A DNA stretch of 34,378 nucleotides, taken from Candidatus Paceibacter sp. Lineage in GTDB: Bacteria; Patescibacteriota; Patescibacteriia; Magasanikbacterales; UBA922. Shown here piece by piece: positions 18,926 to 31,343 of the stretch. Position 1 is the stretch's first letter, and each line of letters starts with the position of its first letter. The DNA is taken from contig DYFM01000014.1 in assembly GCA_020725175.1 (NCBI GenBank), forward strand, positions 1-34,378. Reading direction: 5' to 3'. The position numbers and the translations under genes were made by a program. The notes under the pieces are model-generated. The model was given only the letters and a program-made list of their open reading frames with translations. It did no database searches and was not told where the DNA came from.

Positions 18926-19984
18926 TTATGAAACTAGCACTTGCTCCCATGGATAATCACCCCTACTGAAATGGCCGTACGTGGCGGTTTGTTGATACAT
19001 AGGTCGCAAAAGTCCTAAACGCTCAATTATGGCTCGCGGTCGAAAATCAAACTGCTCACGAATATACTTTTTACCTTTCTCGACATTACCCGTGCCATAT
19101 GTTTCAAGCACAACCATAAGCGGTTCTGCTTTTCCAATCGCGTACGCCACACTGACCAATGCTCGTTTGGCAAATCTTTGCGCAACCACCTGCTTAGCCA
19201 CAAACCGACAAAAATAGGCAGCACTTCGATCGACTTTTGAAGGATCCTTGCCGGAAAAAGCACCACCACCATGTGGAATCAATCCTCCATAGGTATCCAC
19301 CATAATCTTGCGTCCGGTAAGTCCGGTATCAGCTGCGAATCCTCCAACAGTAAACCGTCCAGTCGGATTGACAAGTAATTGTCGATCTTCAATACCCCCT
19401 ACAACCGGCCTCACTACTTCATCACGAATAAACGCATGCAGTTCATCTTGTACTACCGCTGAATCATGTTGCACAGAAACCACCACCGTCTCTACCTTAC
19501 GATCCTTTATAGTAACCTGCACTTTTCCATCCGGAAGAATATATTGTTGTCCAAAAGGATGTGTTCGCCGTAAATAAGACAACCTTTCAGTTAGTTTTGA
19601 AGAGAATACCACCGGCACAGGAAGAAGTTCCCTCGTTTCATCGGTTGCATAGCCGTACATAATTCCCTGATCCCCCGCACCGCCAGTATCAACTCCACAG
19701 GCAATATCAGGTGACTGCTGAACGATTCGGGTGACGATCTCAAGATCATCGATGTATCCAATATCACGATAAACTGCTCGAGCAATGGCTGCGTGATCCA
19801 CGGTTACTTTACTCGTAACCTCACCCCCTAATACCAATAACCCATGCGCCCCAAATGTTTCTACCGCCACTCGAGCTAATGGGTCTTGTTTCAAATACGC
19901 GTCAAGAATCGCATCAGAAATTTGGTCACAAACTTTATCCGGGTGACCTTCAGTTACGGATTCAGTTGTTGTATAGAGAGACAT
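18926..19984 (-). CDS. metK: S-adenosylmethionine synthetase MetK
   Basis: MetK makes S-adenosylmethionine from methionine and ATP in the cytoplasm. The protein has the ATP-binding start TEGHPDKVCDQISDAILD (about residues 12-29), the signature GAGDQGIMYGYAT (about 101-113) and the phosphate-binding loop GGGAFSGKDPSKVDRSAAY (about 238-256). At 352 residues it is shorter than the usual 380-400, but all catalytic motifs are present, so small loops or the C-terminal part are probably trimmed. No Shine-Dalgarno site is seen at the ATG. It is controlled by an upstream SAM-I-type riboswitch and terminator. Between these and the start codon lies a 6-bp tandem repeat. It supplies the methyl donor for the RsmE and SET enzymes in this window. 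Confidence 0.96.
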   Translation of the reverse strand: MSLYTTTESVTEGHPDKVCDQISDAILDAYLKQDPLARVAVETFGAHGLLVLGGEVTSKVTVDHAAIARAVYRDIGYIDDLEIVTRIVQQSPDIACGVDTGGAGDQGIMYGYATDETRELLPVPVVFSSKLTERLSYLRRTHPFGQQYILPDGKVQVTIKDRKVETVVVSVQHDSAVVQDELHAFIRDEVVRPVVGGIEDRQLLVNPTGRFTVGGFAADTGLTGRKIMVDTYGGLIPHGGGAFSGKDPSKVDRSAAYFCRFVAKQVVAQRFAKRALVSVAYAIGKAEPLMVVLETYGTGNVEKGKKYIREQFDFRPRAIIERLGLLRPMYQQTATYGHFSRGDYPWEQVLVS

Positions 19985-24641: not shown

Positions 24642-25625
24642 TTATCCTCCTGAAATCATTCGCTCTATCCGATTTTGTAGTGCTATACCAAGCGCGCTCG
24701 TTCCATACTGCTCATCCACCAGGTAGATACAATCAAGTCCTTTTTTATCAAGTTGATACAACAAATGATACAAATTTTTTGCCACATCTGTCAGTCTTTT
24801 TCTGGTTCCCAAACAATGTGCTACCCCCCTCAATTCATTATCACCAAAAACTGTTTCTTCCAATCCTTCTTCAGTTCCAAGTACCACACACTTTTTTTTC
24901 TTATCCACTTCCCATGCGTTTTTCATGAGTAACAACGGAGTACATGGTGCATAGTGTCGATACCTTGTTCCCGGCACCGGATGTTCTACCCCTTCAGCAT
25001 ACAAAACAGAGTAAGATGAGCCAACCCGATCCAACACCTCACGAATTTCTTGTATTCCTATTGAACCGGGACGAAGAATGGTTACGGTTTCATTGCCAAC
25101 CGAAACAATTGTCGACTCTATTCCAATAGTACAAAGACCACCATCCACCACACCATCAATCTCTGAACCAATGGTTTCATCCACCATTTGCGCGATTGTA
25201 CCACTCATCGTTCCTGATTTATTGGCCGACGGAGCGGCTATCGGTACCTCAACTCCTAGTAATAGTGATAATGCCATGGGATGATCCGGAACACGACAAA
25301 GAATTGTTTCTCTTCCCCGAGTAGCCGGATAAAGAGGTGATTGTTTCGGCAGTGGAAGAAGAATACTCAAAGGACCGGGGGTCAAATATTGAAATAGTAC
25401 CCGTGAAACAACGTCAACGGTAATCCCGTAAGATTCGATGTGCTCCAAGCTATAAAAATGACAAATAAGCGGATTATCTTTAGGCCGCTCTTTTACTGCA
25501 TAAATTTTCTCTACCGCTTCTGCATTGTTCGCCAAAGCACCTAAGCCATACACGGTTTCAGTAGGAAAAGCTATCAAACCACCACGCTGAAGAGTGGTAA
25601 TAGCTGCCTCAAGAGAAATCAACAT
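24642..25625 (-). CDS. L-threonylcarbamoyladenylate synthase (Sua5/TsaC family)
   Basis: Sua5 makes threonylcarbamoyl-AMP from threonine, bicarbonate and ATP, the first step of the t6A37 modification of ANN-decoding tRNAs. The 327-residue protein has the YrdC domain (about residues 8-200), with GGLIAFPTETVYGLG, the KERPKDNPL loop and APSANKSGTMSGT. It also has the extra C-terminal Sua5 domain (about 225-327), joined by PGTRYRHYAPCTPL. The extra domain shows it is the Sua5 form and not the short TsaC form. It is the first gene of a two-gene unit with DUF6671, and its 3' end carries that gene's Shine-Dalgarno site. Confidence 0.93.
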   Translation of the reverse strand: MLISLEAAITTLQRGGLIAFPTETVYGLGALANNAEAVEKIYAVKERPKDNPLICHFYSLEHIESYGITVDVVSRVLFQYLTPGPLSILLPLPKQSPLYPATRGRETILCRVPDHPMALSLLLGVEVPIAAPSANKSGTMSGTIAQMVDETIGSEIDGVVDGGLCTIGIESTIVSVGNETVTILRPGSIGIQEIREVLDRVGSSYSVLYAEGVEHPVPGTRYRHYAPCTPLLLMKNAWEVDKKKKCVVLGTEEGLEETVFGDNELRGVAHCLGTRKRLTDVAKNLYHLLYQLDKKGLDCIYLVDEQYGTSALGIALQNRIERMISGG

Positions 25626-27467: not shown

Positions 27468-27562
27468 AGAAAGTAGATAGAAAAAACATACTAGCCCCCT
27501 CAATAGGAACTAAACGTACAATACTCATGTTTCCGCACAAGACGGACCAGTCTTGAAAAAAG

Positions 27563-27634
27563 CTCCCAGACCAGGGCTCGAACCTGGAACCTACTGGTTA
27601 ACAGCCAGCCGTTCTACCATTGAACTATCTGGGA
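27563..27634 (-). tRNA. tRNA-Asn (anticodon GUU)
   Basis: The minus-strand cloverleaf is complete. The acceptor stem TCCCAGA/TCTGGGA has discriminator G, the D arm has GTTCAATGGTAGAAC, and the anticodon stem is CTGGC with loop TGTTAAC (anticodon GTT). The T arm is CCAGG TTCGAGC CCTGG. It is 72 nt long; CCA is not encoded. A run of six T follows within 2 nt of the 3' end. An extended -10 box (TGGTACAAT, 27655-27647) lies 12 nt upstream. Confidence 0.96.
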
Positions 27635-27646
27635 ACACTTACCAAG

Positions 27647-27655
27647 ATTGTACCA
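27647..27655 (-). promoter_or_regulatory. Probable promoter of tRNA-Asn
   Basis: On the minus strand TGGTACAAT is an extended -10 box ending 12 nt before the tRNA 5' end. No clear -35 box. It implies that the tRNA can be made without readthrough from the leader upstream. Confidence 0.55.
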
Positions 27656-27703
27656 CTCCCTGCCCAAGACGGGTCCGCCTCGGGCGGAAACTATCCCGGA
27701 ATA

Positions 27704-27730
27704 AACAAAAACCCGCCTTGTCGCGGGGTT
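27704..27730 (-). terminator. Terminator of the Asn-codon leader
   Basis: On the minus strand AACCC(C)GC and GCGGGTT pair with one bulged C around a GACAAG loop, followed by TTTTGTTT. It lies about 28 nt after the leader-peptide stop codon and about 70 nt before tRNA-Asn. Confidence 0.85.
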
Positions 27731-27758
27731 CATGAGCACTGTTGCAGAGCACAAACTA

Positions 27759-27821
27759 CTAACCGCAAACGGACGGGTTATTATTGTTATTGTTTCGAAT
27801 TGCGAAAGTTAATAGTTGCAT
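27759..27821 (-). CDS. Putative 20-residue leader peptide with six consecutive Asn codons
   Basis: The minus-strand frame ATG to TAG encodes MQLLTFAIR, six Asn (AAC AAT AAC AAT AAT AAC), then PSVCG. The -10 box of a strong promoter ends 11 nt before the ATG, so the message would be nearly leaderless. Right after the Asn codons, AACCCG (27779-27774) can pair with CGGTT (27765-27761) at the stop codon. The segment GCGGTT (27766-27761) can instead pair with the 5' arm of the terminator at 27730. This is the arrangement of a classic amino-acid attenuator sensing charged tRNA-Asn. The next gene on this strand is tRNA-Asn. It could also be a small RNA in which the Asn codons are chance. Confidence 0.55.
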   Translation of the reverse strand: MQLLTFAIRNNNNNNPSVCG

Positions 27822-27832
27822 ATGTTGACTTC

Positions 27833-27861
27833 AGTATACGCCGGTTTTTTTAAAGGGTCAA
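27833..27861 (-). promoter_or_regulatory. Promoter of the Asn-codon leader
   Basis: On the minus strand -35 TTGACC (27861-27856), a 17-bp spacer and -10 TATACT (27838-27833). Confidence 0.82.
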
Positions 27862-28138: not shown

Positions 28139-28528
28139 ATGAAACTTAATACCATTACTAGCTTTCTAAAAGAAACCGGCTATAAGCTGACCAAAAATCG
28201 TGCCGAAGTAGCTCGCTATCTTGAAAACAATCAAGGAATTTTTTGCGCCAACGATCTTTTGCGCAATTTTTCCAACCTAGACAAAGTATCTTTGTATCGT
28301 ACCCTAGACCTATTTCAGAAACTCGACATTATTCACCCGGTTATCACTCTCAACGGTGAACAATATTATGAAGCCCATGAACTCACCAATCATCACCACC
28401 ATGCCGTCTGTACCAAATGTCACAAAAGTGAATGTATTAGCTGCGATTATACCGATAAACCGGTACCGGGATTTAAAGAAATTCATCATTCAATTGCTGT
28501 CACCGGAATCTGTTATAAATGCGCATAA
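28139..28528 (+). CDS. Fur-family regulator, probably zinc-responsive (Zur-like)
   Basis: The 129-residue protein has the Fur-family winged helix (about residues 1-78, with GYKLTKNRAEVARYLENN and KVSLYRTLDLFQKLDII). Its metal-binding C-terminal half has HELTNHHHHAVCTKCHKSECISC and ends ITGICYKCA. The two CxxC pairs hold the structural zinc and the His-rich segment belongs to the sensing site. Zinc as the signal is inferred from the znuA, znuC and znuB genes directly downstream. The promoter carries a palindrome over the -10 box, so it should repress its own operon when zinc is plentiful. It has no Shine-Dalgarno site. Confidence 0.88.
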   Translation: MKLNTITSFLKETGYKLTKNRAEVARYLENNQGIFCANDLLRNFSNLDKVSLYRTLDLFQKLDIIHPVITLNGEQYYEAHELTNHHHHAVCTKCHKSECISCDYTDKPVPGFKEIHHSIAVTGICYKCA

Positions 28529-28590
28529 CGAACTATAAATAAATATCTTCTAATCTCTTTCAACGTTTAGCATAACATCTTAAATATTAT

Positions 28591-29532
28591 ATGAAAAAAA
28601 TTCTCACATTTCTCTCAGTTGCAGTCCTTGCTCTTGTCATCGGAGCTGGCTGTAGTACTAATTCTCCGCAACCATCACCAGGACAAAGTGCTAATCAACC
28701 TGAACCATCGGTTCGAGTAGCGGCGACTATTTTTCCGTTATATGATATTGTAAAGACCGTTGGCGGTGAACATGTGGCAGCAACACTCATTCTACCTCCC
28801 GGAAACAGTCCCCACACCTTTGAATTGACGCCAAAAGTAACGAAAGAACTGGCAGAGGTATCCCATATTTTTTCTATTGGACAAGGAATTGATACATGGG
28901 TAGCCCAAGCAAAAAACATTGCCCCAAACGCCAGCATTTCAACTGTTGATCAAGGTATTGCTTTACATGAAACCGTCGAACACGCCGAAGAAGAAGGGCA
29001 TACCGAAGAGGAAGAAGAACATGGTCCAATTGATCCACACTATTGGCTAAACCCAATGAATGGTATTACTATTGCAAAAAATGTAGCAGATCAATTGGCA
29101 AACCTTGATCCGGAACACGCGACTGAATACCAAGCAAACGCCGCGGAACTTATCACTGAACTTCGTGAAAAAAATGAAGTATGGAAAGAAACGCTTGCGA
29201 ATGTGAATAAAAAAGAACTTATCACATTTCATGATTCATTTTACTATTTTGCCGATCACTTTGGACTTTCTGTGGTTGCGACCTTTGAACCGTTTCCCGG
29301 AAAAGAACCAACACCACAATATCTCAAAAAAGTGCAGGAAATCATGCAAGAGCATAACATCTCAACCCTCTTTCTTGAACCACAACTTTCGGAACAAGCC
29401 GTGCGTGCGTTCGCCAATGATACTGGCGCTACCATTGCGGTACTCGACCCACTTGGTGGAATTGATAATCGACAAGGATACATTGATTTGATACAATACA
29501 ACGTAGAAACGATCGCAAATACTCTTCGATAA
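28591..29532 (+). CDS. znuA: Zinc ABC transporter substrate-binding lipoprotein ZnuA
   Basis: The 313-residue protein is the external zinc-binding part of the ABC importer. It has a lipoprotein signal ending in the lipobox IGAGC (Cys at about residue 21). The cluster A-I fold follows, with VAATIFPLYDIVKTVGG, the ligand region PPGNSPHTFELTPK and PIDPHYWLNPMNG. It also has HDSFYYFADHFGLSV and VLDPLGG. A charged loop rich in His and Glu (about residues 128-152, HETVEHAEEEGHTEEEEEHG) is typical of zinc rather than manganese binders. The protein is anchored to the outer face of the membrane. It lies 62 nt after the Zur-like gene. Confidence 0.94.
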   Translation: MKKILTFLSVAVLALVIGAGCSTNSPQPSPGQSANQPEPSVRVAATIFPLYDIVKTVGGEHVAATLILPPGNSPHTFELTPKVTKELAEVSHIFSIGQGIDTWVAQAKNIAPNASISTVDQGIALHETVEHAEEEGHTEEEEEHGPIDPHYWLNPMNGITIAKNVADQLANLDPEHATEYQANAAELITELREKNEVWKETLANVNKKELITFHDSFYYFADHFGLSVVATFEPFPGKEPTPQYLKKVQEIMQEHNISTLFLEPQLSEQAVRAFANDTGATIAVLDPLGGIDNRQGYIDLIQYNVETIANTLR

Positions 29533-29556
29533 CACTGTAACAATAATACGAGTTGT

Positions 29557-30303
29557 ATGGCCATTATTGAGGTTCACAATCTTACAAAACGCTTTGGACA
29601 AGTCAATGCCCTGGAAGATATTAATTTCAAAATTGAATCGGGCGATATTGTCGCGCTGGTTGGTCCAAACGGATCCGGTAAGTCAACGCTTGCCAAATTG
29701 ATTGTCGGCCTTGATACACCTACTTCAGGAACCATTCACATCCACCATGAACCCCCAACAAAACCAGGAGTGCCTCGCGTCGGATATGTCCCACAACACT
29801 TTGCGCTCGATCGCACCCTGCCTATGACCGTGTTTGAGTTCCTTCACCTATCATTACCCGGAACTTTTTCGAGATCTGTTGAGGAATCCATAGTAACCTC
29901 CGCACTTACTCGAGTTGGTATTGCCGGACTTCAGTCAAACATTCTTGGTACCCTTTCCGGTGGACAACTCCAACGCGTCCTTATAGCACGCGTACTATTG
30001 CAACCACACGATATCCTGGTGCTTGATGAACCATCGGCCAGTATTGATGTAGGAGGCGAAGAAGAATTATATAGTATTCTACAAAAACTAAATAAAGAAG
30101 ATGGAACCACACTCATTATCATCTCTCACGAACTTGATTTTGTTTTTCGTTTTGCCACGCAAGTGATTTGTGTCAATCGTCGACTGATGTGTAGAGGAAT
30201 ACCAAAAGAAGTGTTAACAAAAGATTTGCTTGAGTCGCTGTATGGTAGTCACACCGCTCACTATCATCACGATCCAAACTGTGACCATCACCACCACCAA
30301 TGA
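29557..30303 (+). CDS. znuC: Zinc ABC transporter ATP-binding protein ZnuC
   Basis: The 248-residue cytoplasmic ATPase has Walker A GPNGSGKST (about 36-44), the signature LSGGQLQRV, Walker B ILVLDEPSASIDVGG and the switch His in IISHELDF. The C-terminal tail ends in HYHHDPNCDHHHHQ, a His-rich cap common in zinc-module ATPases that may bind zinc. It lies 24 nt after znuA. Its stop codon TGA is also the start of dispersed repeat copy B, which separates it from znuB. Confidence 0.94.
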   Translation: MAIIEVHNLTKRFGQVNALEDINFKIESGDIVALVGPNGSGKSTLAKLIVGLDTPTSGTIHIHHEPPTKPGVPRVGYVPQHFALDRTLPMTVFEFLHLSLPGTFSRSVEESIVTSALTRVGIAGLQSNILGTLSGGQLQRVLIARVLLQPHDILVLDEPSASIDVGGEEELYSILQKLNKEDGTTLIIISHELDFVFRFATQVICVNRRLMCRGIPKEVLTKDLLESLYGSHTAHYHHDPNCDHHHHQ

Positions 30304-30463
30304 ATGTCCCCGCAGCACGTGTCCGCCTGGGGTGGAAGCTGACAGGGTATCGCTATAGGTAGTTTTTCCCGATCAAATCGGGAGAGAGTAAAACCCTCGT
30401 CCGCCTTGCTTGTCCGCCTTGTTTACCCGCCTCGGGTGGGGGTGGGGGTTGTGGGCGGATTTA
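30299..30463. repeat. Dispersed repeat, copy B, inside the znu operon
   Basis: This second near-complete copy (about 165 bp) is longer than copy A because of extra GTCCGCCTT and GGGTGG tracts. It starts with AATGAATGTCCCC, which overlaps the znuC stop codon, and fills most of the gap to znuB. No reading frame or transposase. Confidence 0.85.
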
Positions 30464-30506
30464 ATCCATATCGTTTTGAAGCCAATATATAACACCTCAT
30501 CCATAT

Positions 30507-31343
30507 ATGCTCGAGTTATTTACCTATCCGTTTATGCAGCGTGCCCTGGTGGCCGGTATCATTATCGCGCTACTTTTGGGCTGGCTCGGGGTATACGTCA
30601 TTAGTCGCAACATGAGTTTTGTGGGAGATGGGGTAGCTCACGCGTCACTTTCGGCGGTTGCTCTCGCAATTTTAGTCGGGTTCACCCCTCTGCCAACCGC
30701 GATTGTCTTTAGTATTCTCCTCGCTATCGCTATTCACGCGTTAAAACAAAAAAGCAGCATTTCATTTGATGCTGTTATTGGAATTTTGTTTACAACAGGA
30801 ATGGCGCTTGGTATTGTGCTCTTACAATTTCATGAGGGCTACGTTCCCGACTTGATGAGCTATCTGTTTGGAAACATTTTGACGATCAACACATCAGATC
30901 TCTGGTGGATGGCTGGAGTTGGAACACTCATTATTATCTTTTTGGCTACCGCCAGACGGCCGTTGGCTTTTTTGACCATAGATCCGGAAGGTTCTTCTCT
31001 TGCCGGAATCCCGACCAAACGAATTGACCTACTTCTGACAATCATGATTTCCCTCAGTGTTGTATTAAGTATTAAAATGATTGGTATCGTGCTTGTCAGC
31101 GCGCTCCTCATTCTTCCCAGTGCATCCGCCAAACTTCTCGCCCGGTCATTTCATCAGTTTTTAGTTTCCTCTATTATTTTGGCAGTCATCATGGTGCTGG
31201 TGGGAACTATCTTGTCATATGTACTTAATATGCCTACCAGCGCCATTATTGTTCTCTCCGGAACATGTATCTTTTTTGTGTCACTGTTCCTGGCACACCT
31301 TCGCTCTCTCGAAAAAAAAGAGAGTACCACTTCTTCATCATGA
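30507..31343 (+). CDS. znuB: Zinc ABC transporter permease ZnuB
   Basis: The 278-residue inner-membrane protein has about eight helices and belongs to the ABC-3 permease family. Typical segments are MQRALVAGIIIALLLGWLGV, NMSFVGDGVAHASLSAVALA (the conserved D-x-x-x-H region), and ITINTSDLWWM in the loop. LVSALLILPSASAKLLA comes near the end. With ZnuA and ZnuC it imports Zn2+. It is about 200 nt from znuC, an unusual gap for this operon, filled by dispersed repeat copy B. No new strong promoter is seen in the gap, so it is probably still read from the zur promoter. Confidence 0.93.
   Translation: MLELFTYPFMQRALVAGIIIALLLGWLGVYVISRNMSFVGDGVAHASLSAVALAILVGFTPLPTAIVFSILLAIAIHALKQKSSISFDAVIGILFTTGMALGIVLLQFHEGYVPDLMSYLFGNILTINTSDLWWMAGVGTLIIIFLATARRPLAFLTIDPEGSSLAGIPTKRIDLLLTIMISLSVVLSIKMIGIVLVSALLILPSASAKLLARSFHQFLVSSIILAVIMVLVGTILSYVLNMPTSAIIVLSGTCIFFVSLFLAHLRSLEKKESTTSSS

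Follow-up and report, generated by a model that had tools for sequence, protein, structure and literature searches.

A putative ribosome-mediated attenuator with an Asn-codon leader ahead of tRNA-Asn genes in Magasanikbacteria-like Patescibacteria

On the minus strand of the window analysed here, a stretch of 34,378 nucleotides of DNA from a Magasanikbacteria-like member of the Patescibacteria, a promoter is followed by a frame of 20 codons that includes six Asn codons in a row, then by a terminator, and finally by a tRNA-Asn gene. This gene is the sole tRNA-Asn detected in the assembly of the window, which is 98% complete. The original prediction had recognized in this succession the order of parts of an amino-acid attenuator and had pointed out that the next gene on the strand is tRNA-Asn(GTT) itself. 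Both observations are correct, and the parts are located at the following coordinates:

27833-27861, minus strand: sigma-70-type promoter, with TTGACC at 27861-27856, a spacer of 17 nt and TATACT at 27838-27833, matching 10 of 12 consensus positions
27759-27821, minus strand: leader ORF encoding MQLLTFAIRNNNNNNPSVCG, with the ATG at 27821 and the stop codon TAG at 27761-27759
27777-27794, minus strand: six consecutive Asn codons (AAC AAT AAC AAT AAT AAC), the putative regulatory codons
27749-27769, minus strand: putative antiterminator segment 2, across the stop codon (TTTGCGGTTAGTAGTTTGTGC), which can pair with CATGAACCCCGCGA
27707-27727, minus strand: intrinsic terminator CCCGCGACAAGGCGGG-TTTTT, with a CCCGC/GCGGG hairpin at 27727-27712 and a U tract at 27711-27707
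27636-27701, minus strand: insert of 66 nt between the attenuator and the tRNA, an apparent remnant of a tRNA-Asn 5' half (TTCCGGGATAGTTT...AGTGGTACAATC) split by a palindromic element at 27690-27657
27562-27634, minus strand: tRNA-Asn (GTT), with U11-A24 in the D arm

The -10 box of the window is separated from the ATG by 11 nt, which would yield a nearly leaderless mRNA. The window also contains a SAM riboswitch (Rfam RF00162; 20117-20225, minus strand) that precedes a gene for a methionine adenosyltransferase-like protein (18926-19984) and, on the plus strand at 28139-31343, a cluster that opens with a Fur-family regulator gene and continues with the genes for the binding protein, the ATPase, and the permease of a zinc/manganese ABC transporter, according to the translations. 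A Sua5/YwlC-like threonylcarbamoyl-AMP synthase, an enzyme related to the t6A37 modification of ANN-decoding tRNAs, is encoded at 24642-25625, likewise on the minus strand and some 2 kb downstream of the tRNA-Asn gene; this vicinity is probably a coincidence.

The tRNA-Asn genes of relatives were found by blastn with the window region and their upstream sequence was then read; moreover, a tRNA-Asn covariance model was built, and tRNA-Asn loci were collected from the family, the order, and the class. The relatives share a TTGACA-17-TATAAT promoter, an ATG a few nucleotides further on, a short frame that includes an AAY run, a stop codon, a U-tract hairpin, and the tRNA, in this order. Since the same layout recurs ahead of tRNA-Asn in most relatives, that of the window is not due to chance.

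The tRNA-Asn genes of the order and the class are of two kinds. The leader is present at 59 of the 64 genes that carry U11-A24 in the D arm and at none of the 65 that carry C11-G24. One further U11-A24 locus is cut at a contig edge and its tail matches a leader, and the four intact U11-A24 genes without a leader have a different upstream sequence. Once the loci were mapped to genomes, 14 genomes (G044, G054, G084, G143, and G354 among them) were seen to possess both kinds, with the leader always and only on the U11-A24 copy. Magasanik-, Kuenen-, Komeili-, and Veblenbacteria are represented among the named records. A pattern scan of 84,980 species genomes gave at least 29 matches on tRNA-Asn; all the listed ones have the leader and come from Patescibacteria or bacterial MAGs, and about 50 of the matches listed are on other tRNAs, all without a leader. 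The strict leader pattern had no match among the genomes sampled from other classes of the phylum, an absence that is only provisional because this pattern recovers roughly half of the known cases. We have also considered direct versus indirect charging with Asn as the basis of the two kinds, and this idea was discarded: almost every genome of the order has AsnRS and GatB, and therefore, their presence cannot separate the kinds. The tRNA-Asn of E. coli has U11-A24 and that of B. subtilis has C11-G24; thus, no special function follows from the D arm alone.

A terminator was found in 58 of the 59 leader loci, its stem beginning 22-42 nt past the stop codon (median 31), and the structure tests cover these 58 loci with an assignable terminator. 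The original prediction had proposed mutually exclusive pairings, which are possible on paper in the window and are conserved in the relatives. The stop-codon region (segment 2) pairs with the 5' arm of the terminator (segment 3) with z < -2 relative to shuffles in 52 of the 58 loci. The cognate 2:3 duplexes have a mean energy of -14.6 kcal/mol, compared with -9.9 kcal/mol when the segments are permuted among species (z = -14.5 for the 58 loci, only an upper guide because close relatives are non-independent), and none of 20000 permutations of segment 3 reached an energy as low as the cognate one. With an Asn codon in the ribosomal A site, segment 2 would be free for at least one codon in all 58 loci, and a ribosome at the stop codon would cover at least half of segment 2 in 55 of them, assuming a downstream footprint of 12 nt. 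Minimum free energy (MFE) folding with the ribosome masked gave the antiterminator in the stalled state in 25 of 58 relatives; this procedure was judged too crude, and the comparison of cognate and swapped duplexes was used instead.

The proposal of mutually exclusive pairings fares worse in the window copy itself. Its antiterminator duplex (-10.4 kcal/mol) is among the weakest and does not rise above chance (z about 0), and with a ribosome placed at most of the Asn codons, MFE folding still kept the terminator. The presumed function of this copy rests on homology rather than on its own pairing. Such a chance-level duplex, next to an insert of 66 nt that has an extended -10-like box, would suit a genome that is losing its attenuator and transcribes its single tRNA-Asn from an improvised promoter in the inserted tRNA remnant (TGGTACAAT). 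We consider this unlikely, as the promoter, the frame, the six AAY codons, and the terminator are all intact in the window, and more than 40 nt lie between the attenuator and the tRNA in about 18 of the 58 leader loci, i.e., inserts coexist with intact leaders in the relatives. The box TACAAT, described in the original prediction as the -10 box of the tRNA itself, is indeed present, but it sits in an apparent D arm remnant of tRNA-Asn, beside the inserted palindromic repeat, and it has no -35 box at the proper spacing.

The D arm remnant was compared by eye (AGTGGTACAATC versus AATGGTAGAACG). The palindromic element of the insert is dispersed, with many copies in the genome and in relatives, and inserts similar to that of the window also occur in L005 and L015. 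At these three loci (27701-27636 in the window), a partial 5' copy of the tRNA broken by the dispersed palindromic element stands directly upstream of the intact tRNA gene. Broken partial copies are likewise found at tRNA-Lys, -Pro, -Arg, and -Ile/Val loci (L031, L041, L034, and L032), which suggests that tRNA genes are the target of the palindromic element and become partly duplicated by it. Locus L239, from Patescibacteria STB_112, has a leader with nine Asn codons in a row; the tRNA-Asn behind it carries a CCTGC-type interruption in its anticodon region, perhaps again the palindromic element.

The leader frame is constrained as a coding sequence. All 72 unique leaders start with ATG, and between the first and the last Asn codon they contain 431 AAY and not a single AAR codon; the interruptions of the runs are other sense codons (TTG, AGC, CGC, etc.). 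The remaining codons are of mixed composition, and nothing but the Asn run and the frame is common to the peptides. In the relatives, the distance from the -10 box to the ATG has its mode at 8-9 nt, suggesting that the ribosome reads this ORF from a leaderless mRNA. The comparison with relatives envisaged in the original prediction thus came out in its favour, since over 59 loci the Asn codons and the pairings are conserved and the other bases drift.

When the ATG frames upstream of 94 tRNA genes of three genomes were inspected, at least six cognate codons were found only for tRNA-Asn, the next best case being Leu with four, and no cognate leader was detected ahead of any other of these tRNAs. 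A promoter-like TATG followed by four AAY codons was recurrent only at tRNA-Asn in 46 genomes; the two similar matches examined, in G009 and G066, were rejected as leaders because they appear to be antisense to coding sequence. In four genomes, the leader-tRNA is followed at a distance of 130-200 nt by asnS in the same orientation, and in the genomes read where it does not lie behind the leader-tRNA, inspection revealed no Asn leader of its own ahead of asnS. No Rfam family other than tRNA was found at 20 leader loci.

These data bear on the possibility that tRNA-Asn is attenuated but its terminator responds to RNA-binding factors or to translation in general. The Asn run would then not sense Asn-tRNA and would only be a linker, either slow or unstructured. 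In favour of this explanation, most of the runs mix AAU with AAC and are rich in A, and therefore unstructured, but the ratio of 431 AAY to 0 AAR, together with the mixed flanks, is unexpected for an A-rich linker and fits a decoded Asn run. The frame, the ATG, and the position of the stop codon are also constrained, and the leader is specific to tRNA-Asn among the 94 tRNA genes of three genomes, all of which makes this explanation very improbable.

Promoters were scored by their match to the consensus, and their positions are predicted ones. A promoter with at least 9 of 12 matches and its -10 box 4-16 nt before the ATG precedes 49 of 57 leaders. No promoter of this quality was found within 45 nt upstream of the tRNA at the 59 leader-bearing loci, and 30 of the 65 tRNA-Asn genes of the C11-G24 kind have one within the same distance. 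Where no repeat is inserted, 7-25 nt separate the end of the terminator stem from the tRNA; this spacing is found in 36 of 58 loci. The promoter ahead of the leader and the lack of a close one at the tRNA indicate that the tRNA most likely depends on readthrough. It is scarcely credible that the ORF is an independent Asn-rich microprotein gene beside a tRNA gene with its own promoter, for in spite of the good promoter and the terminator of the ORF and the TACAAT box ahead of the window tRNA, conservation is limited to the Asn run and does not include the peptide, no promoter with at least 9 of 12 matches lies close ahead of any of the 59 tRNAs, many genomes have a terminator only 7-15 nt away from the tRNA, and the ORF occurs only ahead of the U11-A24 kind of tRNA-Asn.

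We are therefore left, with considerable confidence, with a ribosome-mediated transcription attenuation of the tRNA-Asn gene by its own decoding activity, as predicted from the sequences. The elements in its support are the putative promoter, the coding constraint on the Asn run, the position of the stop codon, the cognate 2:3 pairing, the terminator, the absence of another promoter, and the specificity for tRNA-Asn. The codon run, the promoter, the terminator, and an antiterminator that a ribosome halted on the stop codon would cover are all found in the relatives, which argues for the attenuator postulated by the original prediction ahead of tRNA-Asn. We infer that the ribosome stalls, that the polymerase reads through the terminator, and in which direction the system responds.

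According to this model, RNA polymerase would start 0-5 nt before the leader ATG, and a ribosome would load at the 5' end of the mRNA and translate the Asn-rich peptide. When Asn-tRNA-Asn is plentiful, the ribosome would reach the stop codon and mask segment 2, so that the terminator, located 7-30 nt ahead of the tRNA (more with an inserted repeat), would form and the tRNA would not be transcribed. When charged tRNA-Asn is scarce, the ribosome would stall in the Asn run and leave segment 2 exposed; this segment would pair with the 5' arm of the terminator, and the polymerase would continue into tRNA-Asn. The cell apparently makes more tRNA-Asn when its ribosomes are short of it, and this negative feedback loop would hold the supply of tRNA-Asn to demand. 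Besides the weak antiterminator of the window, the MFE results, and the four intact U11-A24 genes without a leader, two considerations count against the attenuation reading. To our knowledge, transcription-translation coupling is unproven in Patescibacteria, and extra tRNA is useless when Asn itself is missing. It might be imagined that a shortage of Asn induces the leader-controlled U11-A24 tRNA-Asn as a second, dedicated isodecoder, perhaps the one on which Asp is converted into Asn via a non-discriminating AspRS and GatCAB, and that the constitutive C11-G24 tRNA-Asn serves AsnRS. The wide occurrence of both GatB and AsnRS in the order speaks neither for nor against this idea. We regard it as quite doubtful; if true, the tRNA itself would be the 'biosynthetic gene' of the attenuator.

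The attenuators of amino-acid operons, i.e., the trp, his, leu, thr, ilv, and pheST leaders, are textbook cases of ribosome-mediated transcription attenuation. The tRNA-Asn leader resembles them in its short peptide with a run of cognate codons, its stop codon within the 5' arm of the antiterminator, its alternative 2:3 and 3:4 hairpins, and its U-tract terminator. It differs in being Asn-specific, in its putatively leaderless mRNA, and in its target, which is the cognate tRNA and not an enzyme; in contrast to the trp and his operon attenuators, no biosynthetic enzyme or synthetase is its regular target, asnS being behind the leader-tRNA in only the four genomes mentioned above among those examined. 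In mycobacteria, leaderless polycysteine uORFs act as attenuators in which the codon run is the amino-acid sensor (Shell et al., 2015, PMC4633059; Canestrari et al., 2020, as cited in PMC13236596). They share with the tRNA-Asn leader a leaderless short ORF with a sensing codon run, but they contain Cys instead of Asn codons, control Cys-metabolism operons and not a tRNA, and belong to another phylum. The His leader peptides ahead of the hisS/hisZ paralogues of Bacilli (Naville and Gautheret, 2010, PMC2965389) also govern a component of tRNA charging, but the gene controlled is of the synthetase family and not a tRNA, and the amino acid is His and not Asn. T-box riboswitches likewise respond to tRNA charging by transcription antitermination, as proposed here, but they bind the uncharged tRNA directly, without translation; no match to the T-box model of Rfam was found at the gathering score in the window or at 20 leader loci.

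Our searches of the open-access literature revealed no tRNA gene described as being controlled by a leader-peptide attenuator and, as far as we could find, no known amino-acid attenuator acts on the very tRNA that serves as its input. Since the target would be the very tRNA consumed by the sensor, the circuit would be a closed homeostatic loop: with the speed of the ribosome on Asn codons as sensor and tRNA-Asn as output, the cell could titrate a single-copy essential tRNA to demand. This would represent a concrete case of individual feedback control of one bacterial tRNA. It would also be a case of ribosome-mediated attenuation on apparently leaderless mRNAs in Patescibacteria, bacteria in which we know of almost no regulation, and one where two kinds of tRNA-Asn gene would be set apart by different regulation.
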